This document shows positions 1,586 to 27,819 of a stretch of 31,124 nt of DNA, piece after piece. The notes beneath the pieces are model-generated. The model worked only from the letters and a program-made list of their open reading frames with translations, searched no databases and was not told where the DNA came from. Every line of letters starts with the position of its first letter. Position 1 is the stretch's first letter. The translations under genes and the position numbers were made by a program. The stretch lies in the IMG/VR virus record IMGVR_UViG_3300025664_000003, positions 1 to 31,124 of that record; one strand, given 5' to 3'. The stretch is from a virus.

Positions 1586-2149
1586 ATGATGCGCGCCGGA
1601 TATAAGCAAACGCCCGAGCATATCGAGAAACGCGCTGCGTTCAATCGTGGGCGGAAGCGTTCGCCCGAGGCTATCGAAAAAACCGCGGCCGCGCTACGCG
1701 GGCGAACCTATTCCGAAGCCCGTAGGCTGGATATGTCGCTCGCGCGGAGAGGCAAGCAATATGCCCTCGGGTGCAAGCGCGACGAGGCGTTCCGCCGCAA
1801 GCTTTCGGACTACTACCGCAGCAATCCCGAGAAGCACAACCACTACGTGGACGGCAAGGCCGCGGAGCGCTCCAGCGCGCGCGTCGCCGAAATGGGTCGC
1901 CTCGACTACCGCCTTTGGCGCGAGGCGGTCTTTGCCCGGGACAACTTCACCTGCCAGGATTGCGGCCAGCGCGGCGGGCGGCTCGAAGCGGATCACATCA
2001 AGCCCTACAGCCTGTTCCCGGACCTTCGGCCCGATGTGGACAACGGCCGAACCCTTTGCAGGCCCTGCCATCGGTTGACAGATACTCACTGCGGCCGGAT
2101 AGCGCTCTACAAGCGGCGCCTAGCCGAAGAGATCGCGAGCGCTGCTTGA
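1586..2149 (+). CDS. HNH homing endonuclease with NUMOD3-like repeats
   Basis: 187 residues. Residues about 7-45 contain two NUMOD3-like DNA-binding repeats (TPEHIEKRAAFNRGRK, then SPEAIEKTAAALRGR). The C-terminal half is an HNH nuclease: a first CxxC (CQDCG), the catalytic EADHIKPYS histidine, the DNGRTLCRPCH segment supplying the second CxxC pair and the second histidine. This architecture is that of free-standing homing nucleases that cut one strand or both strands of a phage locus lacking the gene. It is wedged between two small virion genes, three bases after one and abutting the start of the next, so it is expressed from the virion operon. Specificity cannot be inferred. Confidence 0.85.
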   Translation: MMRAGYKQTPEHIEKRAAFNRGRKRSPEAIEKTAAALRGRTYSEARRLDMSLARRGKQYALGCKRDEAFRRKLSDYYRSNPEKHNHYVDGKAAERSSARVAEMGRLDYRLWREAVFARDNFTCQDCGQRGGRLEADHIKPYSLFPDLRPDVDNGRTLCRPCHRLTDTHCGRIALYKRRLAEEIASAA

Positions 2150-2437
2150 ATGGGCGGACTCGGCCCGATCCCCGGCGGGAACAAAACGACGCGCAACGTC
2201 TCGGCCGCGACGGTCATCAAGTCGACGGCCGGAACGATCGTGACCGTCTGCGTCGTGGTCGCGGGTGCCGCGGGCGCGCTGTACGACAACGACTCGACCT
2301 CGACCGGCAACACCGTGGCGAACCTGATCGCGGTCGTTCCGGCAGTCGTCGGCATCTACGCGCTGAACTGGCCGTGCGCGACCGGGATCACGTACGTTCC
2401 CGGCACGTCTCAGGTCGCGAGCTTCGCGTTCTCGTGA
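2150..2437 (+). CDS. Small Ala/Val-rich virion-type protein
   Basis: 95 residues, beginning with the ATG immediately after the HNH stop codon. The sequence is hydrophobic and uncharged with the segment STAGTIVTVCVVVAGAAGALYD, a short beta-rich fold commonly found as small phage structural proteins that are repeated near sheath genes. A transmembrane helix is an alternative reading of the Val/Ala stretch, but the many Thr, Asn and Gly residues favour a beta domain. Its usual partner would be the 995 gene, from which it is now separated by the HNH insertion. Function not known. Confidence 0.5.
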   Translation: MGGLGPIPGGNKTTRNVSAATVIKSTAGTIVTVCVVVAGAAGALYDNDSTSTGNTVANLIAVVPAVVGIYALNWPCATGITYVPGTSQVASFAFS

Positions 2438-2448
2438 AAGGGTAGCCG

Positions 2449-2751
2449 ATGGATAACCCGTGGAAGTGCCCGGCTTGCGGCGTCTGTAACGCGCCGGGCG
2501 TCACGTCGCATCGCTGCGATGACGGCTCTTGCCTGGGCGGTGGCGCGATCATCGTCGTCTCGCCGCCGATTCCGCCGGGGTTCTATCGCTGCTCCTCATG
2601 CGGTACGCACGTGCCGAACGGCCAGGCTCACCAGTGCTGGACGTACGTTCCGCAGCCGACTTGGTACCCGGTCACGTTCACGACCTGCGGCTCGTCCAGC
2701 ATGCCCAACATCGGCGGAGCCTTTCAGGTCAAAACCCTGGTGGTGAGCTAG
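2449..2751 (+). CDS. Cys-rich double zinc-ribbon small protein
   Basis: 100 residues after an AAAGGG ribosome site. Two zinc-ribbon-like knuckle pairs are visible: CPACGVC with a following HRC, and CSSCGTHVP with a following HQC. The centre contains a Gly/Pro-rich linker and the C-terminus is not charged. It lies directly before the tail sheath gene with its stop codon abutting the sheath ATG, so it is co-translated with virion proteins. Phage zinc-ribbon proteins can be structural or regulatory; no function can be assigned. The Cys pattern is seen directly, metal binding is inferred. Confidence 0.55.
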   Translation: MDNPWKCPACGVCNAPGVTSHRCDDGSCLGGGAIIVVSPPIPPGFYRCSSCGTHVPNGQAHQCWTYVPQPTWYPVTFTTCGSSSMPNIGGAFQVKTLVVS

Positions 2752-3840
2752 ATGGCGATCACGTCCCAAATCGTCACTGTTGACGCAACCGTAACCTCGG
2801 CCCCGTCGCCCTCGACGCTTCAGCAGTCCGGCGCGATCGTCTCCGTCGGCGGCACCACGCAGACCACCGGCACCTACGCGTACTACTCAACGCTGACGGC
2901 GCTCGTCGCCGCGCTGTCCTCGGCCGGGAACTACCTCGAAGTCACCCACATGGCGACGACGTTCTTCGCGCAGGGGAACGCGGTCGGCGTCTACGTGCTC
3001 GAGCTCGGTGTCGTGGCCTCAGCCCCGGCCGGGATCACGGCGCTCAACACCTGGATCGTCGCCAACCCCGGCAACTTCTACGCCTACCTGACGCCCGCGA
3101 CGTGGGACGCTTCGGGTGCGGCGCTCAACACGATGGCGGCGAACTACTCGAGCCCGACCGGCAAGACGTACTTCTTCGTCACCACGACCTCAGGGACGAT
3201 CTCGGCATACCTCGCGACCACGAAGGCGATCGTCGCGATCGTACCGAGCCCGACCGCTGCGTCGAGCGAGTTTCAGGCCGCGGCGTTCTTCTACCAGTGG
3301 CTCGCGAACTTGCCGGCGATCGCATCGCCCGTTCCGCCGATGGCCTTCCGGTACGTCTACGGCGTCACGCCCTGGGTGCTCAACGGGAACGGCACGACGA
3401 TCTCGACGATCCTCACGGCGTTCGGGAACATCATCCTGTCGGGCGCGGAAGGCGGTGTCTCCACCGCTACGCTCCGCAACGGCACGACGATGGACGGCAA
3501 CCAGATGATGTTCTGGTACGGCGTCGACTGGGCGCTGATTCAGTCGAAGCAGCAACTCGCGAACGCGATCATCAACGGCTCGAACTCGAACCCGCCGCTG
3601 TACTACAATCAGGCCGGGATTAACACGCTGCTCGCGATTCTCGACGCGATGGGAGCGGCCGGTACGTCGTTCGGGCTGTTCCTCAATGCGACGTTCGCCG
3701 CGACATCGTTCGCGACGTACACGGCGGCGAACCCGTCGAACTACGCGGCCGGTATCTACAACGGCTTCTCGGGGTCGGTCACGCCGCAGCTTGGATTTGA
3801 AGCGATAACTTTTTTTCTTGACGCCGTGACGTTCGCGTAG
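2752..3840 (+). CDS. Contractile tail sheath protein (DUF3383-like)
   Basis: 362 residues, the sheath subunit that would surround the tail tube and contract on infection. The N-terminal part is an Ile/Thr-rich strand region with LQQSGAIVSVGGTTQTTGTY, typical of the DUF3383 sheath family, and residues 150-240 carry the YLATTKAIVAIVPSPT and FFYQWLANLP segments common in small sheaths. Length is short for sheaths, which range widely, consistent with a compact myovirus. It is followed after 13 bases by the tube gene, the normal order. The C-terminus ends FFLDAVTFA. A run of seven Ts near the end is discussed under rejected items. Confidence 0.82.
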   Translation: MAITSQIVTVDATVTSAPSPSTLQQSGAIVSVGGTTQTTGTYAYYSTLTALVAALSSAGNYLEVTHMATTFFAQGNAVGVYVLELGVVASAPAGITALNTWIVANPGNFYAYLTPATWDASGAALNTMAANYSSPTGKTYFFVTTTSGTISAYLATTKAIVAIVPSPTAASSEFQAAAFFYQWLANLPAIASPVPPMAFRYVYGVTPWVLNGNGTTISTILTAFGNIILSGAEGGVSTATLRNGTTMDGNQMMFWYGVDWALIQSKQQLANAIINGSNSNPPLYYNQAGINTLLAILDAMGAAGTSFGLFLNATFAATSFATYTAANPSNYAAGIYNGFSGSVTPQLGFEAITFFLDAVTFA

Positions 3841-3853
3841 GGAGCGCGCAAAC

Positions 3854-4306
3854 ATGAGTGCATTCGCGCCCCTCACCGCCCAAGGTTTGCTTAACCGCGT
3901 CCGGACGCACATCGTCGTGCCGGGAAACACGTCGCTGAACGCAACTGCCGCCTACATGGGCAAATCGCAGGCCGTCCTCACGTTCGAGGGGCCGTTCGTG
4001 CAGCAGCCCGAGACGGCGACCGGGATCGTGAACTCGCCGCAGCCGTACGTCATGGCGCAGATCGTGCTGTCGCTCTTGCGTTCGCAGGCGCTCGCGGCGC
4101 TCTGGATCGCGCAAGCCCAGTCCGATAGCACCCTCGGCAACGTCGTGGCGTATTCGGATTCGGCGAACTTCCCGTCGGTCACGCTGGCGAACTGCTCGAT
4201 CACCGAGGTCGACCCCGGCGCGTTCGACGGCGTCGATCCGACGACGAAGGTCACGATCAAGGGAGTTTTCTACACCAATTCGAGCATGTGGGCGCCGAGC
4301 GCCTAA
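3854..4306 (+). CDS. Tail tube protein
   Basis: 150 residues. Assigned as the inner tube subunit on size and position: it lies right after the sheath and right before the frameshifted chaperone and tape measure, the invariant order in myophages. The sequence is beta-rich, with KSQAVLTFEGPFVQQPETATG near residue 35-55 and VTIKGVFYTNSSMWAPSA at the end, where the tail-tube fold usually closes. No other motif is visible. Start at the ATG after a GGAGCG ribosome site. The tube would form hexameric rings stacked under the sheath. Confidence 0.75.
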   Translation: MSAFAPLTAQGLLNRVRTHIVVPGNTSLNATAAYMGKSQAVLTFEGPFVQQPETATGIVNSPQPYVMAQIVLSLLRSQALAALWIAQAQSDSTLGNVVAYSDSANFPSVTLANCSITEVDPGAFDGVDPTTKVTIKGVFYTNSSMWAPSA

Positions 4307-4315
4307 CGAGGCTTC

Positions 4316-4903
4316 GTGACGATCAATGCAGACCTCAAGCTCGCGTTCCCGATCCGCTGGAGTGACGACGCCAAACCGCTGATCTGGGCGTATCACACGC
4401 CGCTTTCGCGCGAGGTGTTCGACGCGAACTACCGGGTGATCGCGGCGACCAAGGCGGCGCTGTTCTCGAAGGGGCTCGGCTACGCGGCCGAGATCGCGCC
4501 GACCATCGCGTCGCTCGCGCTCCAGGACGCCGCGCGCCAGGACGCGCTCGAGAGCGGCGTGGAGGGCGACGGCGCGAGGCCGCTGCTGGCCGAACTGAAG
4601 CGCCTCACGATGGTGCTCGCGCCGGGCGCCATCGGCTACGAACTCATCCCGGCCGAGGTCGCGGTAGCGCGCAAGGTGATCGACGACGAGGACTGGTCGG
4701 AGGCAGAGTCCGGAGTCGTTTTTTTTACCTGCGGATATGCGATGACGCCCCGGCGGCTTCGCGAGAACAAGGCAACGGCCTTGGCGTTGATCCTGCGGGG
4801 ATCGACTACATCCTTGGCGCCTTTGGAGTGGGTCGCTTCTTTGCCGAAGTCGACCGAGGGCGAGACTTCCGAGCCAGCCCCAGCATCGTCGCTGCCGTCT
4901 TAG
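4316..4903 (+). CDS. Tail assembly chaperone, zero-frame product
   Basis: 195 residues from a GTG start preceded by CGAGG. It corresponds to the short (G-like) chaperone that binds the tape measure during tail assembly in long-tailed phages. The protein is helical and acidic in the middle, and the last 35 residues (GSTTSLAPLEWVASLPKS onward) are low-complexity Ser/Pro/Glu, as expected for the less used zero-frame tail. Codons 135-137 are GTT TTT TTT, a slippery run, where a -1 shift would give a longer product. The gene lies between tube and tape measure, the canonical site. Confidence 0.72.
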   Translation: MTINADLKLAFPIRWSDDAKPLIWAYHTPLSREVFDANYRVIAATKAALFSKGLGYAAEIAPTIASLALQDAARQDALESGVEGDGARPLLAELKRLTMVLAPGAIGYELIPAEVAVARKVIDDEDWSEAESGVVFFTCGYAMTPRRLRENKATALALILRGSTTSLAPLEWVASLPKSTEGETSEPAPASSLPS

Positions 4904-9607: not shown

Positions 9608-9954
9608 GAACGTGGGGGCGTGTCGGTCAAATTGGCGGCCAGGGCGGGACCTGGACGCTAGTCCAAACGGACGTCAACGGCGATAATTCAAACGTCTATC
9701 TGACCGCGCTCGTCCAGGTGCTGCGACTCAATCTTCTGGAGAGCCCGTTCTGGTCGAACTACGGCATCCCGGCGTATCCATCGGTTATAACTCAGGTCTT
9801 CCCAGATTTTTACGCCTCGGCAACGCAGACGCAGTTCGCTCCCTTCTTCGCATCGCTCACGATCATCCGCGTGCAAGGCTCATTCCCGCCTCAATATAAC
9901 GTCCGCGCGCTCTGTAACTCCGGTGCGATCTTGACGACCGTGGTGGCGACGTGA
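9604..9954 (+). CDS. Baseplate wedge gp25/GpW-like small protein
   Basis: 116 residues, ATGA overlap with the spike gene. The middle reads YLTALVQVLRLNLLESPFWSNYGIPAYP, which resembles gp25-like or DUF2634-like proteins that join wedge to sheath; the remainder is beta-rich. It normally lies directly before baseplate J. Here the GIY-YIG/HNH gene is inserted between the two, beginning within the stop codon of this gene (GTGA). Length fits gp25 family. Assignment is positional with some pattern support. Confidence 0.65.
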   Translation: MRTWGRVGQIGGQGGTWTLVQTDVNGDNSNVYLTALVQVLRLNLLESPFWSNYGIPAYPSVITQVFPDFYASATQTQFAPFFASLTIIRVQGSFPPQYNVRALCNSGAILTTVVAT

Positions 9955-10811
9955 GTTACCGGGGAGCGTACTACGTCTACATGCTGTTCCGTCCTAGCGG
10001 CGAGCCATGCTACGTCGGGAAAGGTAAGGGTGGCCGATATAAGCGCATGGACCGCCCCCACAACACACACCTTCAGCGCATCATCGACAAGGCCGGTGGC
10101 AGACTTACGTCGATCAAGTTCGCCGAATATCTGCCGGAAAGCGAAGCGCATGAACTAGAGATCGCGCTGATCGCCGAGTTCGGCCGCGCCGGGAACGGCG
10201 GAATCTTGGTGAACGCGACGACCGGCGGTGAAGGAATGTCCGGCGTCAAGAAATCGGCGGCTACCAGGGATAAGATCAGCGCGACGAAGCGCGCCAAGTC
10301 AACGCCGCAAGAGCGATTCTGGGCGCACGTCAATAAGTCAGGCCCTACAATGCCAGGCATGGATACAAACTGTTGGCCGTGGACCGGGCACTTGAATGAG
10401 GACGGTTACGGGAAGCTCAATCTGCGAATCCATGGCTATTCAAATATCGCGCCCAGAGCCGCCTACCAGATATGCGCCGGGCCGTGCCCTCCACTCGACG
10501 TCGACCTGATTTGCGGGAATCACGCTTGCGTGAGGCCCGAGCATATCGCCTTCGTGTCACGTCGGGAAAAGGGCGCCCGTGGAATGAGCGTTCCGGCGCG
10601 CAATGCACGAAAGACACACTGCAAGCGCGGGCATCGATTCGACGAAGAAAATACCTACCGCCCGGCCTCACTTCGCGGGCGCGCACCAAAGCGTGAATGT
10701 CGGCCGTGCAAGGCCGTTCATCACAAGACGTACATGGCTAAGCATGGCGATAGGGTGCGGGCCAGGGCGCTGGCTGGATATCATGCTCGAAAGAACGGTA
10801 AGGCGGCATGA
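9951..10811 (+). CDS. GIY-YIG plus HNH fusion endonuclease
   Basis: 286 residues with two nuclease domains. Residues 6-90 are GIY-YIG: YYVYMLF, then CYVGKGKGGR, a conserved glutamate in ELEIALIAEFGR and N in LVNATTGGEG. A NUMOD3-like linker (MSGVKKSAATRDKIS) follows. Residues 120-200 are an HNH_3-type domain: CWPWTGHLNEDGYGKL, ICGNHACVRPEHI. The C-terminal region has a further Cys/His module, THCKRGHRFDEENTY with CRPC. Its base composition looks lower in G+C than its neighbours. It sits between two baseplate genes with GTGA and ATGA overlaps. Whether both nuclease domains are active is not shown. Confidence 0.85.
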   Translation: MSYRGAYYVYMLFRPSGEPCYVGKGKGGRYKRMDRPHNTHLQRIIDKAGGRLTSIKFAEYLPESEAHELEIALIAEFGRAGNGGILVNATTGGEGMSGVKKSAATRDKISATKRAKSTPQERFWAHVNKSGPTMPGMDTNCWPWTGHLNEDGYGKLNLRIHGYSNIAPRAAYQICAGPCPPLDVDLICGNHACVRPEHIAFVSRREKGARGMSVPARNARKTHCKRGHRFDEENTYRPASLRGRAPKRECRPCKAVHHKTYMAKHGDRVRARALAGYHARKNGKAA

Positions 10812-12007
10812 GCGGAACCCCACTCCTGTTCACCGCAGCCGGGCCAGTAGCTACTCCCCCGGCGACGCTCCAGCAGGCGCTGATCGCCGCGGTCGCTGCT
10901 ACTAATCCGGGATATACCGCGAACTTGCCGGGCAGCTTAATCGAGGACCTGAGTTCGACCCAAGTCGGGTCAATGGTCACGATCGACCAAGCCCGCGTCG
11001 ACGCCGTGAACAACGTCTCGCCGTACGCGATGAACCCGTACGTGCTCGCGCAGTTCGGCCGGCAGACGGGCGTTCCGCAGGGGCTGGCGGCGAACGCGAG
11101 CGTCTACGTCGTGTTCTCCGGGTCGGCCGGGTACGTCATCCCGCCCGGCTTCGTCGTCTCGGACGGCACGAACAGCTACGTCATCCAGGACGGCGGCACG
11201 ATCGCGAGCGGCGGGAGTTCGCAGCCCCTCTTCGCAGTCGCGTCCACCCCGGGCTCGTTTGCGATTCCAGCGAACACCGTCACGGCCATCGGCACGTCGG
11301 TCCCCAGCCCGTACGCGCTCACCGTGACCAACCCGCTCGCTGGCACGGCGGCACTCGCGCCCGAGACGACCGAGAGCTACCGCAGCCGCATCCTGGCGGC
11401 CGGTCAGGTCGCCACGACCGGGACGCCGACGTACCTCAAGACGCTGCTGTGGGCGGTTCCCGGCGTCAACGTGAGGCTCGTGCGCGTGCTGCAAGTGGGC
11501 GCGGCCTGGGAGGTCATCTGCGGCGGCGGCGATCCGTACCAGGTTGCGGGCGCGATCTACGCGGGTGTCAGTAACGTCGGCGGGCTAGTCGGATCGCAGA
11601 CGTCGTCGCTGCGGAACGTCAAGGTCACGATCTACGATGCGCCCGACGATTATACGGTCGTGTTCGTGAACCCGCCGGTGCAGACGGTCGGCGTAGCGGT
11701 CACATGGAATACCACACTGCCCAATTTCTCGGCCGGGGCTGCGGTGAATCAGTACATCATCGGCGCGACGCAGGCGTACATCAACGGGATCGTCGTCGGT
11801 CAACCGATCAACCTGCTTGTGTTGAGCGAGCAGATTCAGGCCGCGATCTCGTCCGTGCTCGCGCCGATCAACCTCACCACACTGCAATTCACCGTGAAGA
11901 TCAACAGTGTCCCGACGCAGCCGACGGCGGGAACGTCGATCATCCCGTCAGATCCAGAGGCGTACTTCTTCATCTCGGCCTCAGCGGCTACGTCCGTGCA
12001 AGGCTGA
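10808..12007 (+). CDS. Baseplate J-like wedge protein
   Basis: 399 residues, ATGA overlap with the nuclease. Typical baseplate J features: N-terminal helix LQQALIAAVAATNPG with LPGSLIEDLSSTQVG, a beta-sandwich with YVIPPGFVVSDGTNSYVIQD and SFAIPANTVTAIGTS, then the diagnostic ETTESYRSRILAAGQ segment followed by VPGVNVRLVRV. It forms the wedge of the baseplate that links hub, sheath initiator and fibres. Size is normal for the family. Confident call from several family landmarks. Confidence 0.85.
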   Translation: MSGTPLLFTAAGPVATPPATLQQALIAAVAATNPGYTANLPGSLIEDLSSTQVGSMVTIDQARVDAVNNVSPYAMNPYVLAQFGRQTGVPQGLAANASVYVVFSGSAGYVIPPGFVVSDGTNSYVIQDGGTIASGGSSQPLFAVASTPGSFAIPANTVTAIGTSVPSPYALTVTNPLAGTAALAPETTESYRSRILAAGQVATTGTPTYLKTLLWAVPGVNVRLVRVLQVGAAWEVICGGGDPYQVAGAIYAGVSNVGGLVGSQTSSLRNVKVTIYDAPDDYTVVFVNPPVQTVGVAVTWNTTLPNFSAGAAVNQYIIGATQAYINGIVVGQPINLLVLSEQIQAAISSVLAPINLTTLQFTVKINSVPTQPTAGTSIIPSDPEAYFFISASAATSVQG

Positions 12008-12010
12008 CGA

Positions 12011-13120
12011 ATGGGCTGGCTCACTACCGAAACAGGCCAGTCGCTGCTCACGGAAACCGGCGAGCAGATACTCCTTGAGGGTGCGCCATATCTCCCACTC
12101 CAGACTACGATTTTGTCGTTTTTGTACGAGCAGTTCAACGACGACTCCGACCTCAACGCGTTCGTCGCATCGTTCAACGCAATCGCGCAGACGTACCTCG
12201 ACTGGTTCAATGCGACGCCGCTAGCGGTCTACACGAACCCGAACATCGCGGGCCCGCTGCTCGATTGGATCGCGCAGGGCATCTACGGAATCGCGCGGCC
12301 GGTGTTCTCGTCGCAGACGACGCAGTACATCGCGGGGCTCAACTCGGGGCCGCTCAACGCGCGCGCGGTCAACGGCCACCTGTTCCTACAGAGCGGTACC
12401 GCGACGATCGCGACGGACGACTACTACAAGCGCGTCATGACCTGGTGGCTCTACACCGGGACGTCGCGCCGCTTCAACGCCACGCTCCTGCGGCTGAAGG
12501 TCGCGCGGTTTCTGTACGGTGTGAACGGCACCGACGTGACGCTTGACCAAGCGCAGAGCGTGCACGTCCAGCCGGAATCGGTGACGCCGCCGGGGCCGCC
12601 GGTGCTGTCCGATACGATGGCCGGGGGCGCGATCGCAGCGCGGACGTATGGCGCGCGGGCCTCGTACGTCACGCCGTTGGGCGAGGGACTGGCGGGCGCG
12701 GCGGCCGCGCTGACCGTACCGTTCAACTACCGACTGGGCGTGGCGAGCCCACCGGCGGCGAACGGCGCGACCACCTGGAACGCCTACGTCGGCATCCTGT
12801 CGACGAACCCCGGCAAATTCATCGCGGGGCTCAACAGCGGGCCAGTCAACGCGGCGCCGGTGAACGGGACGAACAAGCGCGGTGTCGCGCCGCCGACCCG
12901 CCAGAACACGACGCCCATCCCGATCGGCACGAATTGGCTCGAGCCGACGAGCGGGCTGATCGCTGGGCTCCCGCTGCCGACCCAGGACGAGACGAACACG
13001 CCGGGCAACTTTCTCGTGACGATCCCCGGCGGGACGGCCTCGTCTATCTTCCAGCAGGCATTTGAGCAGGGTCTGCTGGCGTTCCCGTTCCAGCTCAACG
13101 CTACGATTGTGGTGGCCTAA
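12011..13120 (+). CDS. DUF2612-like baseplate/fibre connector protein
   Basis: 369 residues, start three bases after baseplate J stop. The N-terminus has a repeated LTTETGQSLLTETGEQILLEG pattern seen in phage structural proteins; residues 55-165 (NDDSDLNAFVASFNAIAQTYLDWFN ... YYKRVMTWWLYTGTSRRFN) resemble DUF2612, which joins wedge to fibre. The motif IAGLNSGP followed by VNG occurs twice, near residues 113 and 275, framing a Val/Pro/Ala-rich insert. It abuts the fibre gene by a TAATG overlap. The connector role is inferred from order. Confidence 0.65.
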   Translation: MGWLTTETGQSLLTETGEQILLEGAPYLPLQTTILSFLYEQFNDDSDLNAFVASFNAIAQTYLDWFNATPLAVYTNPNIAGPLLDWIAQGIYGIARPVFSSQTTQYIAGLNSGPLNARAVNGHLFLQSGTATIATDDYYKRVMTWWLYTGTSRRFNATLLRLKVARFLYGVNGTDVTLDQAQSVHVQPESVTPPGPPVLSDTMAGGAIAARTYGARASYVTPLGEGLAGAAAALTVPFNYRLGVASPPAANGATTWNAYVGILSTNPGKFIAGLNSGPVNAAPVNGTNKRGVAPPTRQNTTPIPIGTNWLEPTSGLIAGLPLPTQDETNTPGNFLVTIPGGTASSIFQQAFEQGLLAFPFQLNATIVVA

Positions 13121-14638: not shown

Positions 14639-14821
14639 TTGCTCGCGATCCTCGTCTTCCTGCTCTTCTTCTTGATCGTCTTCTCGATCATCGTCTACAT
14701 CGTGCGGCTACTCGTTCCGGCCCCGTTCCTCAACGTCGCGCTCGCGATCGTCGCGCTGATCGCGCTCGTCATCCTGTTCGAGCGGTTCGCTCCGATGGTC
14801 GGCCTCGGCCACCTGTCGTGA
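14639..14821 (+). CDS. Small two-helix membrane protein (holin candidate)
   Basis: 60 residues from a TTG preceded by GAGGTAA. Residues 2-25 (AILVFLLFFLIVFSIIVYIVRLL) and 31-50 (NVALAIVALIALVILF) are hydrophobic helices joined by a short Pro loop; the C-terminus is short. Size and position before the amidase suit a small class II-type holin, which would let endolysin through the membrane. It overlaps the amidase gene by GTGA. The holin role is an inference; no sequence family was recognised. Confidence 0.5.
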   Translation: MLAILVFLLFFLIVFSIIVYIVRLLVPAPFLNVALAIVALIALVILFERFAPMVGLGHLS

Positions 14822-15360
14822 ACTTCCCCTCGGCGATCCTCAACGCGTTCGGACGCCGCAACGCCTCTCAGATCACGACGTTGTTCATCCACCACACCGT
14901 CATGGTCCCCACGGCCGATGTCACCGAAGTCGACGCGGTCGACCGCGGCCGGGGCGGGTTCCTCGCCATCGGCTACAACGCGTACGTGAAGTCGACGCCG
15001 GGCGGCTGGGTCGTGCAGCAGGCGCGTCCGCTGAACGTCATCCCGGCGGCACAGTACGGGATGAACACCGAGGGCTACGCGATCGCGGTCGGCGGCAACT
15101 ATCAGCCGGGCGGCGCACCGTTCCTGACGCCCTACGATCCGGCCGTGCTGCCGGTGATCGCGGCCCAGGTCGCGGCGGTCAAGAAGAAGTGCCCGAACCT
15201 GCGATACCTCTGCGCACACCGCGACGTCGCGACGATCATGGAGAAGCGCGGCCTCGACCCGGGTCTATATTCGACCGCCTGCTGCGGGGACGACCTGTAC
15301 GCCCACCTCGACGAGTTGCGGACGCTCGTCGGCCTGGCGAAGTACCCCGGCCTGCCGTGA
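14818..15360 (+). CDS. N-acetylmuramoyl-L-alanine amidase (amidase_2/PGRP-like) endolysin
   Basis: 180 residues from a GTG overlapping the preceding stop. Residue landmarks of the zinc amidase fold: FIHHT (H25 or H26), a Gly/Ala-rich core (YAIAVGGNYQPGG), CAHRD (H134) and a DPG motif with D147 that normally supplies the third ligand. It would cut the amide between muramic acid and the stem peptide. There is no signal peptide, so export depends on a holin. The gene is followed after 29 bases by the truncated lysozyme. Strong family match, so the call is confident. Confidence 0.85.
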   Translation: MNFPSAILNAFGRRNASQITTLFIHHTVMVPTADVTEVDAVDRGRGGFLAIGYNAYVKSTPGGWVVQQARPLNVIPAAQYGMNTEGYAIAVGGNYQPGGAPFLTPYDPAVLPVIAAQVAAVKKKCPNLRYLCAHRDVATIMEKRGLDPGLYSTACCGDDLYAHLDELRTLVGLAKYPGLP

Positions 15361-15389
15361 ATCTCTCCCGCTTCGGAAAGGAACCTCTG

Positions 15390-15509
15390 TGCCACAGATA
15401 AACGCCGCCGGCCTCTCGCTCATCCGAAACTTCGAGGGCTGTAGGCTCGAAGCGTATCCGGATCCCGGAACCGGCGGCCAGCCCTTCACGATCGGCTTCG
15501 CGCCATGAT
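15390..15509 (+). pseudogene. Truncated lysozyme (GH24 N-terminal fragment)
   Basis: A GTG with an AAAGGA ribosome site 10 or so bases upstream opens a 39-residue frame: MPQINAAGLSLIRNFEGC, then LEAYPDPGTGGQPFTIGF, then AP and a TGA. This is the N-terminal lobe of a GH24 phage lysozyme with the catalytic E16, D25 and T34 region present, but it stops where GHT would normally follow, exactly at the start of the HNH gene. The remaining 100 or so residues are missing. It is too short to fold as a lysozyme. An independent full-length lysozyme lies just beyond the HNH gene. Confidence 0.85.
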
Positions 15510-15948
15510 GTCTTCGGAGGAGCGGTTTTGGAGTCGCGTTGCCCGGCATCCGACGGGCTGCTGGGAGTGGCTGGGCGCGAAGCGCAAGGGATACGGCAAG
15601 GTTCGACGAGGGGGACGGCCGGGTCGAGTATTTTACGCCCACCGTCTCGCGTATGGTTTTGCCGTTGGCCGCGTTGACCCGCGCCTCGATGTCTGCCACC
15701 ACTGCGACAATCGAGGGTGCGTCCGCCCTTCGCACCTATTCATGGGCAGTCACCTGGAAAACATGCTGGATCGTGACGCGAAAGGCCGGAACGTCAACCT
15801 CACCGGCCAGCGACATGGAATGTCGAAGCTCTCAGACCAAGATGTTCGAGACATCCAAGGTTGCGATGACGATGCCCTGGCGCTCTCGGAGCGGTACGGC
15901 GTCGCTCGTAAGACCATCTATTACTGGAGGCAGCGTGCCACAAGTTAA
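15505..15948 (+). CDS. HNH_3 homing endonuclease with C-terminal helix-turn-helix
   Basis: 147 residues starting ATGATG across the end of the truncated lysozyme. Residues 18-30 (GCWEWLGAKRKGYGK) and 44-90 (FYAHRLAYGFAVGRVDPRLDVCHHCDNRGCVRPSHLFMG ... NMLDRDAKGR) form an HNH_3 domain with the CHHC pair. The C-terminus (KLSDQDVRDIQ ... ALSERYGVARKTIYYWRQR) is a helix-turn-helix likely to bind DNA. It has TGGAGG near its end, which is the ribosome site for the next gene, whose GTG lies 14 bases inside this stop. It therefore both ends the first lysozyme and supplies translation signals to the second. Confidence 0.88.
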   Translation: MMSSEERFWSRVARHPTGCWEWLGAKRKGYGKVRRGGRPGRVFYAHRLAYGFAVGRVDPRLDVCHHCDNRGCVRPSHLFMGSHLENMLDRDAKGRNVNLTGQRHGMSKLSDQDVRDIQGCDDDALALSERYGVARKTIYYWRQRATS

Positions 15949-16384
15949 CGCCCCCGGCTTGCAGTTGATAAAGAACTTTGAAGGTTGTCGGTTAACTGCG
16001 TACGATGACGGAACCGGAGTCCTGACGGTTGGTTGGGGCCATACCGGCTCGGTGAACGGCAAGCCCGTCGCGCTCGGCATGACGATCACGCAGACCACCG
16101 CCGATGACCTGCTCGCCACCGACCTCGAGAAGTTTGAGGAAGGCGTCAACAAGAAAGTCTCGCACGACCTGACGCCCAATCAGTTCGCCGCACTGGTGTC
16201 GTTCGCGTACAACGAGGGCCTCGGCGCGCTCGAAGGGTCGACGCTGCTGCGCCTCCTCAATGCGGGCGACACACAGGCCGCGGCCGATCAGTTCGGCGAC
16301 TGGACGACCGCTGACGGCCAGGTGCTCGAGGGGCTCGTGCGCCGGCGCGCGGCGGAACGCGCGCTGTTCCTGACGCCAGGATGA
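15935..16384 (+). CDS. Endolysin, GH24 lysozyme (muramidase)
   Basis: 149 residues from a GTG preceded by TGGAGG. The start MPQVNAPGLQLIKNFEGC places E16, D25 and T31 with the same spacing as T4 lysozyme (E11, D20, T26). The segment TVGWGHT gives the conserved loop, and FAALVSFAYNEGLGAL the helix that lines the cleft; VRRRAAERALFLTPG closes the fold. It cleaves the glycan chain between MurNAc and GlcNAc. No export signal or SAR helix is seen, so it needs a holin. It is a divergent paralogue of the broken copy upstream, not a fresh duplicate. It overlaps the next gene by ATGA. Confidence 0.9.
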   Translation: MPQVNAPGLQLIKNFEGCRLTAYDDGTGVLTVGWGHTGSVNGKPVALGMTITQTTADDLLATDLEKFEEGVNKKVSHDLTPNQFAALVSFAYNEGLGALEGSTLLRLLNAGDTQAAADQFGDWTTADGQVLEGLVRRRAAERALFLTPG

Positions 16385-16536
16385 CGCCCGAACAGGTCGA
16401 CTCAGCGCTGCTCGACGGCTGGGAGTATCTCGAGGCTGTGAAACACGGCCGGATGCCGCCCAAAGACGCTTCGCTGGTCATCGACCAGTTGGAGGAGGCG
16501 CTGGCCGGCGAAGTCGGCTGGACGCAGCCCGAATGA
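16381..16536 (+). CDS. Small acidic hypothetical protein
   Basis: 51 residues, coupled by ATGA on both sides. Sequence MTPEQVDSALLDGWEYLEA and a second helix SLVIDQLEEALAG form an acidic, probably two-helix protein with no recognised motif. It lies between the endolysin and a membrane protein, so a small lysis-related accessory protein is possible. Nothing in the sequence identifies a function. Confidence 0.55.
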   Translation: MTPEQVDSALLDGWEYLEAVKHGRMPPKDASLVIDQLEEALAGEVGWTQPE

Positions 16537-16892
16537 TCCTCGCGCTGTACGCCCGCTGGCTCGCGATCCCGGCGCCGATCCGCGAACCGATCCGCTCGTT
16601 TGCCGTGTCGGCCGCGTTCGGTCTGGGCACCGCCATTTCGACCGCGTTCACCGCCTATTTCTTCAACTCCGAGCTGCACGGGCAGACGTGGGGCGGATTC
16701 TTCCACCTGCTCACGAGCCCAGCGTTCGTCGGCGCCGCGTTCATAGCTATCGCCGCGGCGTACCGCGCGCGCCAGGGAAGACTCGCCTCGACCCAGACCG
16801 TCGAGACATCGGCCGCCGTGTCGGTTCCGAAGCCGCCGCCACCGGCAAAGATCGTCGCGGTCGAATCGGTCACCGATGCGGGCCCGCCATGA
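16533..16892 (+). CDS. Two-helix membrane protein (holin or lysis-related candidate)
   Basis: 119 residues. Two hydrophobic segments are visible, about residues 21-43 (IRSFAVSAAFGLGTAISTAFTAYFF) and 55-77 (FFHLLTSPAFVGAAFIAIAAAY), followed by a basic RARQGR and a Pro-rich tail (PKPPPPAKI). Such a topology fits class II-type holins or phage membrane anchors. It is second holin candidate after the one at 14639. Overlaps both neighbours. Without a family match the function is undecided. Confidence 0.55.
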   Translation: MILALYARWLAIPAPIREPIRSFAVSAAFGLGTAISTAFTAYFFNSELHGQTWGGFFHLLTSPAFVGAAFIAIAAAYRARQGRLASTQTVETSAAVSVPKPPPPAKIVAVESVTDAGPP

Positions 16893-20028: not shown

Positions 20029-20705
20029 TCGTCGTCCCCGCCCGCAAACAGCGGGCCATTCCCAGCCGGTGCAATCCCGCCGCCCCACGATGTGATCGCG
20101 TGGATCAAGCAGACCTGCGCGAGCGTCTCCGAATGCTGATGATCCAGGTTGCACGTATTCTTGCGAATGTGCCGCAGCACGGTAGCGTGGGTGCAGTCGA
20201 CCTCAACGGGGCTCCCGTCGTCGTCCGCGGTCATCTTCCCGATGCACGCCTTCCCGGCGCTAATCCCGCCGATCTCGATCTCGGCCGCGTCGATCTTCGC
20301 CTGCAAGGCAAACACCCACGCGACGTCGACGTGCGGATCGCGCCACAACGCGGAATAGTCGCGCGCTGGCGGCTCCTCTTCGCGCGCGGGCGGATCGTGG
20401 TGAATGTTCGCTTCGCGGCCGTCGACTTCGCCGCGGCGCTTGCGCGTCGCCTTCGGCGCTTCGGTCATGAGCGGATGCCCGTCCTCGGTGAGCAGCACGG
20501 CGCCGCCCTCGGTGAGAATCGGCTCGCTTCCAGCTGCGGCCTTGATCTTTTTGGCCTGCAACTCTTTGGCGAGCTTATTTCGGTACGCCAGCGGCGCACC
20601 GCAGTTCTTGTCGTGATCGACGTTCGGATCGGCGATGCGGTTGTCGCAGCTATCGCAGGTGACGTACACGCGCTCGGCGGTTGCTGGCATTTCGGAGCCT
20701 TTCAT
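20025..20705 (-). CDS. Hypothetical protein with N-terminal Cys cluster
   Basis: 226 residues from ATG in the helicase stop overlap. A second ATG (residue 6, 20690) has AAAGG seven bases upstream and is a likely alternative start (MPATAERVYV). Residues 13-40 contain CDSCDNRIADPNVDHDKNCG, a putative zinc site. The middle is charged and disordered; the C-terminal 70 residues include CIGKM, CTHATVLRHIRKNTCN and CLIHAITSW, further Cys/His residues. It precedes the zinc-finger protein. No recognised family. Confidence 0.6.
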   Translation of the reverse strand: MKGSEMPATAERVYVTCDSCDNRIADPNVDHDKNCGAPLAYRNKLAKELQAKKIKAAAGSEPILTEGGAVLLTEDGHPLMTEAPKATRKRRGEVDGREANIHHDPPAREEEPPARDYSALWRDPHVDVAWVFALQAKIDAAEIEIGGISAGKACIGKMTADDDGSPVEVDCTHATVLRHIRKNTCNLDHQHSETLAQVCLIHAITSWGGGIAPAGNGPLFAGGDDE

Positions 20706-22132
20706 TGGGCGACCGTTCCCGGTGTTGGGAACAGGTCTGCGGGGTCGTCGCTGGGTTGGAAGTCCATCCCGATAGTGCGCGCGGCCTCGGGCCGGTTGCG
20801 CTCAAACCAGGGGGTGACGGGGAACCCGTCGTCTTTGGCCTCGCACCACAAGGCGCGAGCGCCGTCGAAGTACATCGGCACGTAGCCGGTGTCGCCGTCA
20901 CGCGACTTCACCACCACCAGCTCGCCGATCGTCGGCTTCTGCATCGGATCCTCGCGGTACGGGAAGATCGCCGTGTGCGCGTGCCCTTCGACGTTCCCGC
21001 CGTCGCGGATCTGCTGGAGCGAGGTGAACGACGGCCGCCCGGTGGCCGTGCGGTTGAGGTGGATCAACGCGAACACCGGGCAGCGAAACTCGGCGCCGAA
21101 CGCCAGGAGCCGCTGGTACGTCTCGTCGAGGGCCTCATGCTTCGTTTGGCGCCCGCGCGGCTTGGCCTCGTCCAAGAACAGCACGTGGTCGATCACGACC
21201 GCGGCGAGCGATCCGCGCCGCCGTACGATCTCCCGGGCGTTGCGATACAGCATGGCGATCGACCGCTCTTTCTGGCCGGTCACGTACACGGCGAGCGGTG
21301 AGAGTTCGCGGCTGGCGATCGCCACCCGCTGGCGCTGCTCGCTCGTCAGCTCCGCCAGCCGCTGCGCACGGGCCGAGGCCGTCGACCGCTGCGCCAGCCT
21401 GCGCCGGTCGATCGCCTCTGCGCCCATTTCGATCGACGCGAACAGCACCGGGCCGTAGGTGTCCGCGATGAAGTCGGCCAGGGTGATCCCAAGGCCCGTT
21501 TTGCCGGTCATCGGAGCCGCTGGGACGACGACAAGCTCGCCTGGGGCAAACCCACCCACCCGCCGGTTCACACCCGCCCAGGGCGACAGGATGACCGTCT
21601 GGCGCTCGCGATTCGCGATCCCGGCCGCCAGCCGGCCGACTCGCTCGTCGGGCTCGTCCAGCCGGAGCGCGCCGATCCCGCGTTGCGTGACCGCCGAGAG
21701 GGCTTGCTCGGCGTCGAGCATCGTGGCCGCGATGTCGTCCTGGTAGCCGAGCTCGGTAATCTCGGCGCCGGCGTGAATCATCGCCCGGGACATCGCCTTC
21801 TTGCAGACCACGTCGGCGTAGTACGCCGTCGACGCCGCCGACGGGACCGCGTTCATCAGGTCGTTCAGGTACGCCATGCCGCCGACTTTGTCGAGCATCC
21901 CGCAGGCGCGCAACTCCCCGGCCAGTGCGACCTTGTCGAGCGGTTCGCTGCGGGCGTACAGCCGCGAGAGCGACAGAAAGATCGTCTCGTGCAGGGAGGC
22001 GTAGAAGTCGCCCGGGTACACGTACTCGAGCGCGACCTCGAACATCGCGGGGTTGACCATGACGGCACCGAGCAGGGCCATTTCGGCTTCGAGGTCGTGC
22101 GGCGGGATGCGGTCGTGGCCGTGAGTGGTCAT
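20702..22132 (-). CDS. dnaB-like: Replicative DNA helicase, DnaB family
   Basis: 476 residues; the start at 22132 is chosen because upstream codons belong to another frame. Residues 10-105 are the DnaB N-terminal domain (PPHDLEAEMALLGAVMVNP ... GDFYASLHETIF). Residues 205-212 (AAPMTGKT) form the P-loop, a slightly unusual form of the usual RPSMGKT; AAVVIDHVLFL is the Walker B strand; residues with VYVTGQKERSIAML, GGNVEGHAHT and VVKSRDGDTG complete the RecA-like core. It unwinds DNA at the phage fork. It lies downstream of the initiator-like gene, and no primase is seen in the window. Confidence 0.9.
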   Translation of the reverse strand: MTTHGHDRIPPHDLEAEMALLGAVMVNPAMFEVALEYVYPGDFYASLHETIFLSLSRLYARSEPLDKVALAGELRACGMLDKVGGMAYLNDLMNAVPSAASTAYYADVVCKKAMSRAMIHAGAEITELGYQDDIAATMLDAEQALSAVTQRGIGALRLDEPDERVGRLAAGIANRERQTVILSPWAGVNRRVGGFAPGELVVVPAAPMTGKTGLGITLADFIADTYGPVLFASIEMGAEAIDRRRLAQRSTASARAQRLAELTSEQRQRVAIASRELSPLAVYVTGQKERSIAMLYRNAREIVRRRGSLAAVVIDHVLFLDEAKPRGRQTKHEALDETYQRLLAFGAEFRCPVFALIHLNRTATGRPSFTSLQQIRDGGNVEGHAHTAIFPYREDPMQKPTIGELVVVKSRDGDTGYVPMYFDGARALWCEAKDDGFPVTPWFERNRPEAARTIGMDFQPSDDPADLFPTPGTVAQ

Positions 22133-22281
22133 GCGGGGACCCAGCCCAGCGCGGCGAGCAGTTGGGCTCCGATCCACTCGGTGTAGGCGGGCGGGATCGC
22201 CTCGTTGACCTCGGCGCGGTGGTAGCCCATAGCCGCACCGCCGCCGCAAAACAGGTCGAGCAGCCGAGGACGTCCGTTCAT
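22129..22281 (-). pseudogene. DNA cytosine methyltransferase remnant (internal deletion)
   Basis: 50 residues, overlapping the helicase start by ATGA. Residues 4-22 (PRLLDLFCGGGAAMGYHRA) are motif I of C5-cytosine DNA methyltransferases as found in phages, and the following VNEAIPPAYTEWIGAQLL matches the C-terminal motif X helix of the same enzymes. The two ends are fused in frame at residue 22-24 and the whole middle, including the PC catalytic loop, is missing. It cannot be a working methyltransferase. Either an in-frame deletion scar or a retained miniprotein. It lies between initiator and helicase genes. Confidence 0.82.
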
Positions 22282-26585: not shown

Positions 26586-27106
26586 CCGTCAGCGCCGCCC
26601 CAACCTTCACCCCCGCCGAGCTCGCCGCTGTCATCCTGGCCGACGAGCCCGACACCGTCGACGCCCCGCTCGGAACCGATGCGTGGACGACCACGGTCGG
26701 CGCGCTGCTGGCGGCGAGCAAGCTGTTCGGCGCCGCGCCGTACATCGGCAAAACCGTCGCCTACGCGTGCCGATTGGTCCTCGGTGGCTCCCCGCCCGCG
26801 ACGATCACGGGCAGCGGTGGGACCGGGATCATCCGGTTCTCGCGGCCGACGCGGTTCGCGAAATGCTCCTGCGGCAAGACCGTGCCGACCGAACTCGTCC
26901 GCAAGCAGGGCATGTTTGAGGACCTGGGCCCGACCTCGCGCAACGCGACCGACACCTGCGTCTGCGGCCGGTCCCGTAGCGTCCACGAGGACGCCGAACT
27001 GCGCCAGAAGCCGCACGTCGCGCGGGCGCTCGAACGCTGCGGTGGCGTGTTCCAGCCGCTCGGCGCGATGCCGTTCGACTCGTTCTACTGCGGGTGCTAC
27101 GACTGA
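26582..27106 (+). CDS. Hypothetical protein with two CxCG motifs
   Basis: 174 residues. Residues 95-150 contain FAKCSCGKTV and TCVCGRSRSVH, a paired CxCG that likely holds zinc, followed near the end by FYCGCYD. The N-terminal half is helical and hydrophobic (FGAAPYIGKTVAYACRLVLGG). No family recognised. Coupled by overlap to both neighbours. Confidence 0.6.
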   Translation: MTVSAAPTFTPAELAAVILADEPDTVDAPLGTDAWTTTVGALLAASKLFGAAPYIGKTVAYACRLVLGGSPPATITGSGGTGIIRFSRPTRFAKCSCGKTVPTELVRKQGMFEDLGPTSRNATDTCVCGRSRSVHEDAELRQKPHVARALERCGGVFQPLGAMPFDSFYCGCYD

Positions 27107-27819
27107 TGACGCCCGCCTCACTCGATGCCCGCGCGCCCGGTGCGAAGGTGTACTTCAAAGCTGTCCAAATTGACGGCTATTCCTTCCAGGGCAGCCCGAA
27201 GGTGCTCTACGAGGTCGGTGTGACGGTCGTCCCGGCGCCGCAACGCGAGACGAGCGGAGCGCCGCGCATCTGCGGCCCCGGCTACCTACACGCATCCAAC
27301 GCCGCGGGCGAAACGCTCATCGGCGGATCGTGGCCGTGCCGGCTGTTCGAGGTCACCGGCACGCCGGTCGCCGGATTCGACGGCGAGCATACGCACAAAG
27401 GTGGCTTTCTGTCGCTGACCATCGAGCGGGAGATCGAAGCGCACCGCGCGCTCGGTCCGAACGGCGCGCAGGTCGTGGCGTTTATCGAGCGCCTGAAGAC
27501 CACGACGGAAGACGACTGGACGGTCGTCATACGCGAGCGTCAGCGAGCGTCCGGGGACGCCGCCAGGGCCGCCGCCAGGGCCGCCGCCGGGGCCGCCGCC
27601 GGGGCCGCCGCCTGGGCCGCCGCCAGGGCCGCCGCCGGGGACGCCGCCGGGGACGCCGCCAGGGCCGCCGCCAGGGCCGCCGCCTGGGCCGCCGCGCTCG
27701 CGCTTGTCGCGCGCGACAAGCTCTCGCTGGAGCAATTCGCCGTGCTCTACAAGCCTTTCGCCACGGTCATCCCGGCGGACTCCCTCTTAGCCGAGACGCA
27801 GCCGGAGGTGACGAAATGA
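27106..27819 (+). CDS. DUF7666-like protein with Ala-rich 4-residue repeats
   Basis: 237 residues from an ATG overlapping the previous stop (TGATG). Residues 10-135 form a folded domain with YFKAVQIDGYSFQGSPKVLYEVG, ICGPGYLHASNAAGETLIGG and WPCRLFEVTGTPVAGFDGEHTHKGGF, reminiscent of DUF7666-type phage proteins in which a beta-rich head precedes an Ala-rich tail. Residues 150-197 are 12 copies of a 4-residue unit [RGW][AD]AA encoded by a 12-base repeat. The tail (LVARDKLSLEQFAVLYKPFA) resumes normal composition. Function unknown. Confidence 0.62.
   Translation: MTPASLDARAPGAKVYFKAVQIDGYSFQGSPKVLYEVGVTVVPAPQRETSGAPRICGPGYLHASNAAGETLIGGSWPCRLFEVTGTPVAGFDGEHTHKGGFLSLTIEREIEAHRALGPNGAQVVAFIERLKTTTEDDWTVVIRERQRASGDAARAAARAAAGAAAGAAAWAAARAAAGDAAGDAARAAARAAAWAAALALVARDKLSLEQFAVLYKPFATVIPADSLLAETQPEVTK
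27553..27696 (+). repeat. 12-base tandem repeat encoding [RGW][AD]AA
   Basis: Twelve in-phase units of 12 bases (GGG/AGG/TGG followed by GCC or GAC, GCC, GCC) cover 144 bases. Each unit encodes four residues, giving an Ala-rich helix with variable first residue. The period is a multiple of three, so the frame is kept if copies are gained or lost. Confidence 0.85.

Follow-up and report, generated by a model that had tools for sequence, protein, structure and literature searches.

How does a phage come to carry the start of a lysozyme gene, an HNH endonuclease gene, and a complete lysozyme gene in direct succession? This question is raised by an IMG/VR virus record, analyzed here as one stretch of 31,124 nucleotides (the window), whose gene order is that of a tailed phage with a contractile tail. 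The answer that we consider probable is that the locus is an intron-less HNH homing element, which interrupts the lysozyme gene and supplies it with a diverged new 5′ end.

Table 1. Features of the interrupted lysozyme locus and of further HNH_3 loci with the same or a mirrored anatomy
Locus	Feature	Position	Strand	Remarks
Window	Amidase gene	14818–15360		precedes the GH24 fragment
Window	Shine-Dalgarno-like sequence of original lysozyme start	15375–15382	+	GGAAAGGA
Window	5′ fragment of original GH24 lysozyme gene	15389–15508	+	39 codons, GTG start, "PDPGTGG" subtype
Window	Left junction	15500–15510	+	GCGCCATGATG; homology to complete gene stops at GCCAT; TGA/ATG overlap
Window	HNH_3 (H-N-H zinc-finger) homing-type endonuclease gene	15505–15948	+	147 aa; weak C-terminal helix-turn-helix match
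Window	Ribosome-binding site of complete lysozyme	15926–15930	+	GGAGG, inside HNH coding sequence
Window	Complete GH24 lysozyme gene	15935–16384	+	149 aa, E16-x8-D25-x5-T31
Window	Putative replacement 5′ end of lysozyme gene	15935–16048	+	about codons 1–38, diverged copy of 15389–15505, GC3 0.58; predicted boundary
L038	T4-type lysozyme			MNEQLLKVELHRDEGVR / MDMNLLVAELKRDEGVR
L073	Helicase			fragment fused in frame to HNH ORF; new gene begins inside HNH end
L175	Unknown gene			cyanobacterial genome
L146	AAA-type ATPase
L098	Gp37-like gene
L154	ssb
L144	Helicase
L372	GH24			possible case, just MERRM common
L077	Mirror case	2409–3592		complete gene, HNH, then orphan diverged copy of 3′ end
L149	Mirror case	3519–4593		complete gene, HNH, then orphan diverged copy of 3′ end

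Anatomy of the lysozyme locus

The gene fragment (Table 1) is closed by a TGA at 15506–15508 and encodes 39 residues, VPQINAAGLSLIRNFEGCRLEAYPDPGTGGQPFTIGFAP. It matches the PHROG endolysin family (E 8e-8); against the Pfam Phage_lysozyme profile its E-value is just 0.05, because it is so short, and the match covers positions 2–22 of 125 rather than the full-length domain. The GH24 residues Glu16 and Asp25 and a threonine (Thr34) are present, and the fragment ends before the remaining fold. Its stop overlaps the start of the HNH gene by ATGA. The HNH protein matches Pfam HNH_3 (E 2.6e-11) and has the invariant residues C64, H65, C67, N69, C72, H77, and N86 of this domain. The complete lysozyme gene starts with a GTG 14 nucleotides within the HNH gene and ends with a TGA at 16382–16384. 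Its product matches Phage_lysozyme (PF00959, E 1.1e-46) over all positions, 1–125 of 125, and this full-length match together with the triad E16, D25, and T31 places it in GH24. The first-pass annotation had thus described the main parts correctly, namely a 39-residue GH24 N terminus with its catalytic acidic residues that ends at the HNH start and a divergent complete GH24 gene that begins inside the HNH end and takes its ribosome site from the HNH coding sequence; the start that it gave for the fragment (15390) is one base off.

The fragment and the rest of the locus could act together as a split gene, as in nrdA of phage Aeh1, and gene splitting by HNH insertion is indeed known in phages (PMC2988022). 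This is scarcely credible here, as the downstream gene spans the whole GH24 model with catalytic residues of its own and makes the 39-residue fragment redundant.

Several other features of the window were recorded. Its lysis region combines an amidase gene beside the GH24 lysozyme gene with genes for two small, hydrophobic products that are possible holins (14639–14821, 14818–15360, 16533–16892). A hybrid GIY-YIG and HNH_3 endonuclease gene (9951–10811) lies between a PHROG 7986 gene and a baseplate-J-like gene and overlaps both. In this J-like gene, GC3 is low in the first ~37 codons (0.63 versus 0.87), and it may be a second 5′-end replacement of which the remnant has not survived. The third homing-type endonuclease gene of the window (1586–2149, HNH with a NUMOD3 match) is placed between two unrelated short genes. 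No significant flanking duplication was found at 1586–2149 or at 9951–10811. The product of 27094–27819 has a repetitive Ala-rich segment (ARAAAGAAAG) near its end, and matching long ORFs exist in other frames.

Homology of the fragment and the complete gene

The fragment and the N terminus of the complete lysozyme are homologous, well beyond chance. They share 76% identity over 29 residues (E 3e-10), and the homology of the DNA spans from the start codon to the GCCAT at the left junction. The protein alignment scores 119, whereas pairings of unrelated HNH loci have a median score of 32 and reach 82 at most. The endonuclease gene thus lies between homologous copies of one gene end, of which one is part of a complete ORF, as is typical of mobile ORFs (mORFs). 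By their N termini, the two copies fall into separate GH24 subtypes, PDPGTGG for the remnant and D-x(3)-G for the new start.

HNH genes are often found in phage introns, and the fragment and the downstream sequence could be read as exons that are spliced from around a group I or group II intron. Phage ICP1 offers examples of HNH genes in such introns (PMC10448857). No sign of an intron behind such splicing, which the first-pass annotation had named as a finding against its own reading, came from an Rfam search within 15200–16500 (no match up to E 1), and no intron was matched in 11 loci that cover the analogous cases. An intron also does not explain why the sequence of exon 1 is repeated directly 5′ of exon 2, which leaves this reading hardly tenable.

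In the complete lysozyme, the codon composition changes where the remnant breaks off. GC3 rises from 0.54 to 0.87, with the changepoint at codon 37 (p 0.004 by permutation). The step lends only mild support to a composite gene, because similar 5′ dips occur in a few other genes of the window (12011–13120, 10808–12007, and possibly 20702–22249, whose start is uncertain). A subtype classifier based on protein identity made no assignment for the lysozyme body (mean identity 0.548 to the subtype of the remnant, 0.529 to the other).

Searches for close relatives of the phage or its lysozyme found none, the best protein identity being about 58–59%; the GH24 endolysins of Gifsy-2, SEN34, and Hafnia yong1 reach 55–58% at best. 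The amidase likewise retrieved no close relatives of the window, the baseplate J search yielded relatives of 46–63% identity only, and INPHARED held no record that covers most of the HNH plus lysozyme query. Because no comparably close relative was found, a mosaic of foreign and native parts is not directly demonstrable in the window itself.

The same anatomy at other HNH_3 loci

A set of about 155 HNH_3 loci was gathered from IMG/VR and from GTDB genomes, and the sequences on either side of each HNH gene were compared. The order of gene-start fragment, HNH gene, and complete gene with a diverged copy of the start recurs in several loci besides the window, and two mirror cases concern the 3′ end (Table 1). 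Among 141 testable sites, the window and L175 each reached an empirical p of 0.0002 in anchored start-to-start scoring, and L038, L098, L144, and L154 reached 0.002–0.004; the weaker loci rest on a gene-family match plus the score. Several of the top flanking-similarity matches proved on visual inspection to be self-overlaps or GC-rich frames of low complexity and were removed. The flanking similarity at L080 resembles a motif common in phages and was excluded, and Shewanella phage ZP9 was rejected as a further case, as its HNH gene follows the endolysin at a distance of one gene. At L372 (880–1500), the HNH gene is located directly 5′ of a GH24 lysozyme; both ORFs begin with MERRM, encoded by different codons, and are separated by a terminator-like hairpin.

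The window could also descend from two tandem paralogous lysozymes, the first of which was entered by the HNH gene and later lost its 3′ half, so that the element replaces no gene end. The remnant and the complete gene are indeed diverged homologs. Tandem lysozymes without HNH were named by the first-pass annotation as a finding that would count against its reading, and a second GH24 gene occurs in none of the ~80 related GH24 loci. Moreover, the order of fragment, HNH gene, and complete gene recurs at unrelated genes, each of which would need a paralogy of its own. Such an origin is therefore very improbable.

On balance, we lean toward the view that HNH homing elements of this kind are widespread in phages and prophages near conserved gene ends, each carrying a diverged replacement end and using the displaced end as a homology arm. 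In this view, the target genes are lysozyme, helicase, ssb, recombinase-like, and ATPase genes.

Native and foreign parts of the ATPase and helicase genes

Two loci have HNH-less relatives, the ATPase (L146) and the helicase (L073/L261). At the ATPase locus, the remnant of 23 codons shares 79–82% DNA identity with five of six relatives and 68% with the most distant one (L183). The body of the new gene (codons 46–267) is 70–78% identical to the relatives, in contrast to only 61–64% in codons 1–45, and no such step is seen when the relatives are compared with each other. GC3 is 0.51 in the new end versus 0.80 in the body. This identity pattern and the jump in GC3 indicate that the remnant and the body are native and that the start is foreign.

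For the helicase (L073), 80 relatives were fetched and 55 aligned; the HNH gene lies directly upstream of the helicase in 22 of these close relatives and is absent from the rest. L261, which has the HNH gene, and L253, which lacks it, are 97.2% identical in the helicase body and 53% in the first ten codons. Before its HNH gene, L261 keeps an L253-like upstream flank and the first seven codons, which are followed by the element-type sequence QQRTIDELYAW. The L226 and L215 remnants contain this sequence as well, although the helicase bodies of these two loci are different (~77% identity to L261). In a second pair, L228 and L240, the body is 97.5% and the first 10 codons are 70% identical; L228 fits the pattern in its body and start, and no remnant was detected before its HNH gene. 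L073 and L214–L265 are nearly identical phage helicase loci from a natural population, some of which have an HNH gene at the gene start and others none. The presence and absence of the gene at the same site support, indirectly, the mobility of these HNH_3 relatives alone.

Judged by these alignments, the body after the HNH gene is native at the ATPase and helicase loci, and foreign sequence is confined to the first ~10 to 45 codons. The helicase remnant and body would then serve as the two homology arms in homing. By analogy to both loci, the lysozyme body of the window, which begins near codon 39 and has a GC3 of 0.87, probably represents the native 3′ part of the original lysozyme, and by analogy to the helicase loci the fragment probably serves the element as its left homology arm.

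These comparisons bear on the proposal that, after cutting by the HNH enzyme, a whole foreign lysozyme gene was acquired along with the HNH gene and the original 3′ half was lost. The different N-terminal subtypes of remnant and complete gene speak for such an exchange, as does the absence of a second copy of the 3′ half from the window. It conflicts with the native bodies and solely foreign 5′ ends of the two loci with HNH-less relatives and with the GC3 of the lysozyme body, which is phage-typical, unlike that of the 5′ end. Replacement of the whole gene is accordingly unlikely. The statement of the first-pass annotation that the second half of the first lysozyme is gone does not follow from the locus, as this half may well persist as the 3′ part of the "second" lysozyme. 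Its further idea of an endolysin replacement driven by the nuclease probably holds for the start of the gene, where nuclease-driven recombination would have left a diverged and presumably uncuttable sequence behind, and probably fails with respect to the whole gene, the body being native at the two comparable loci.

Proposed mechanism of homing

In the favored reading of an HNH element with a replacement 5′ end, the HNH gene and a diverged copy of the first ~38 lysozyme codons would have been inserted into the lysozyme gene close to its conserved T-x-G-x-G-H segment. What remains of the old start 5′ of the HNH gene would be a 39-codon remnant, coupled to HNH translation by the ATGA, and a complete lysozyme would be restored by the start that the element brings along, whose ribosome site is in the HNH reading frame. 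The HNH enzyme is predicted to cut element-free lysozyme alleles near codon 37. The break would be repaired from an element-bearing phage, with the upstream flank and the old start as the left arm and the lysozyme body as the right arm, and through this two-arm repair the HNH gene plus the new start would be copied in. The new start may be too diverged to be cut or to recombine with the remnant.

If this holds true, a nuclease can reside in conserved coding sequence and attack essential genes with neither a self-splicing intron nor an intein, and such elements provide phages with chimeric 5′ (and 3′) gene ends. Annotation would otherwise record loci of this kind as a pseudogene next to an unrelated gene. 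Homing, cut site, and resistance are directly accessible to testing in the ~55 closely related helicase contigs, which include both HNH-bearing and HNH-less ones.

Comparison with known mobile endonucleases

The fragment and the complete gene of the window belong to the GH24 phage lysozymes (PF00959), a family that is interrupted here by an HNH gene. No description of gene-end-carrying endonucleases in phages was found in the open-access literature, including two recent papers on phage homing (PMC10448857, PMC12724721), and recurring gene-end replacement by HNH elements in phages looks so far undescribed.

The free-standing endonucleases of T4-type phages (mob/seg; intronless homing) are located between genes or split genes, according to the passages of PMC2988022 considered here. 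As portrayed there, they resemble the present elements in their position beside conserved phage genes, in the start/stop overlap with the upstream ORF (UAAUGA in mobE), and in homing by break repair with co-conversion of the flanks; a replacement gene end is not among the features that these passages list for them. PMC2988022 also covers nrdA/mobE of phage Aeh1 and gene 43 of phage 25, in which a homing gene likewise lies inside a coding sequence. Both halves must cooperate in these cases, whereas the downstream gene is complete here.

The HNH elements with a diverged replacement gene end would be a phage counterpart of the mobile ORFs of fungal mitochondria. In atp6, atp9, cox2, and nad3, mobile endonuclease ORFs supply the gene with a foreign C-terminal end while the native one stays behind, with examples in Allomyces macrogynus and Glomus sp. 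(PMC3630166). In both systems, an endonuclease ORF sits within a gene, and a diverged end keeps this gene whole; a native remnant and body combined with a foreign end, as in the fungal cases, are seen at the ATPase and helicase loci and are probable for the window. The fungal mORFs carry 3′ ends (C termini), in contrast to the 5′ end found here and the 3′ ends of the two mirror cases. The mORF enzyme for atp6 is of the LAGLIDADG type and resides in mitochondria, while HNH_3 enzymes of phages and prophages are used here, and, unlike in the fungal mORFs, the genes overlap for translational coupling.
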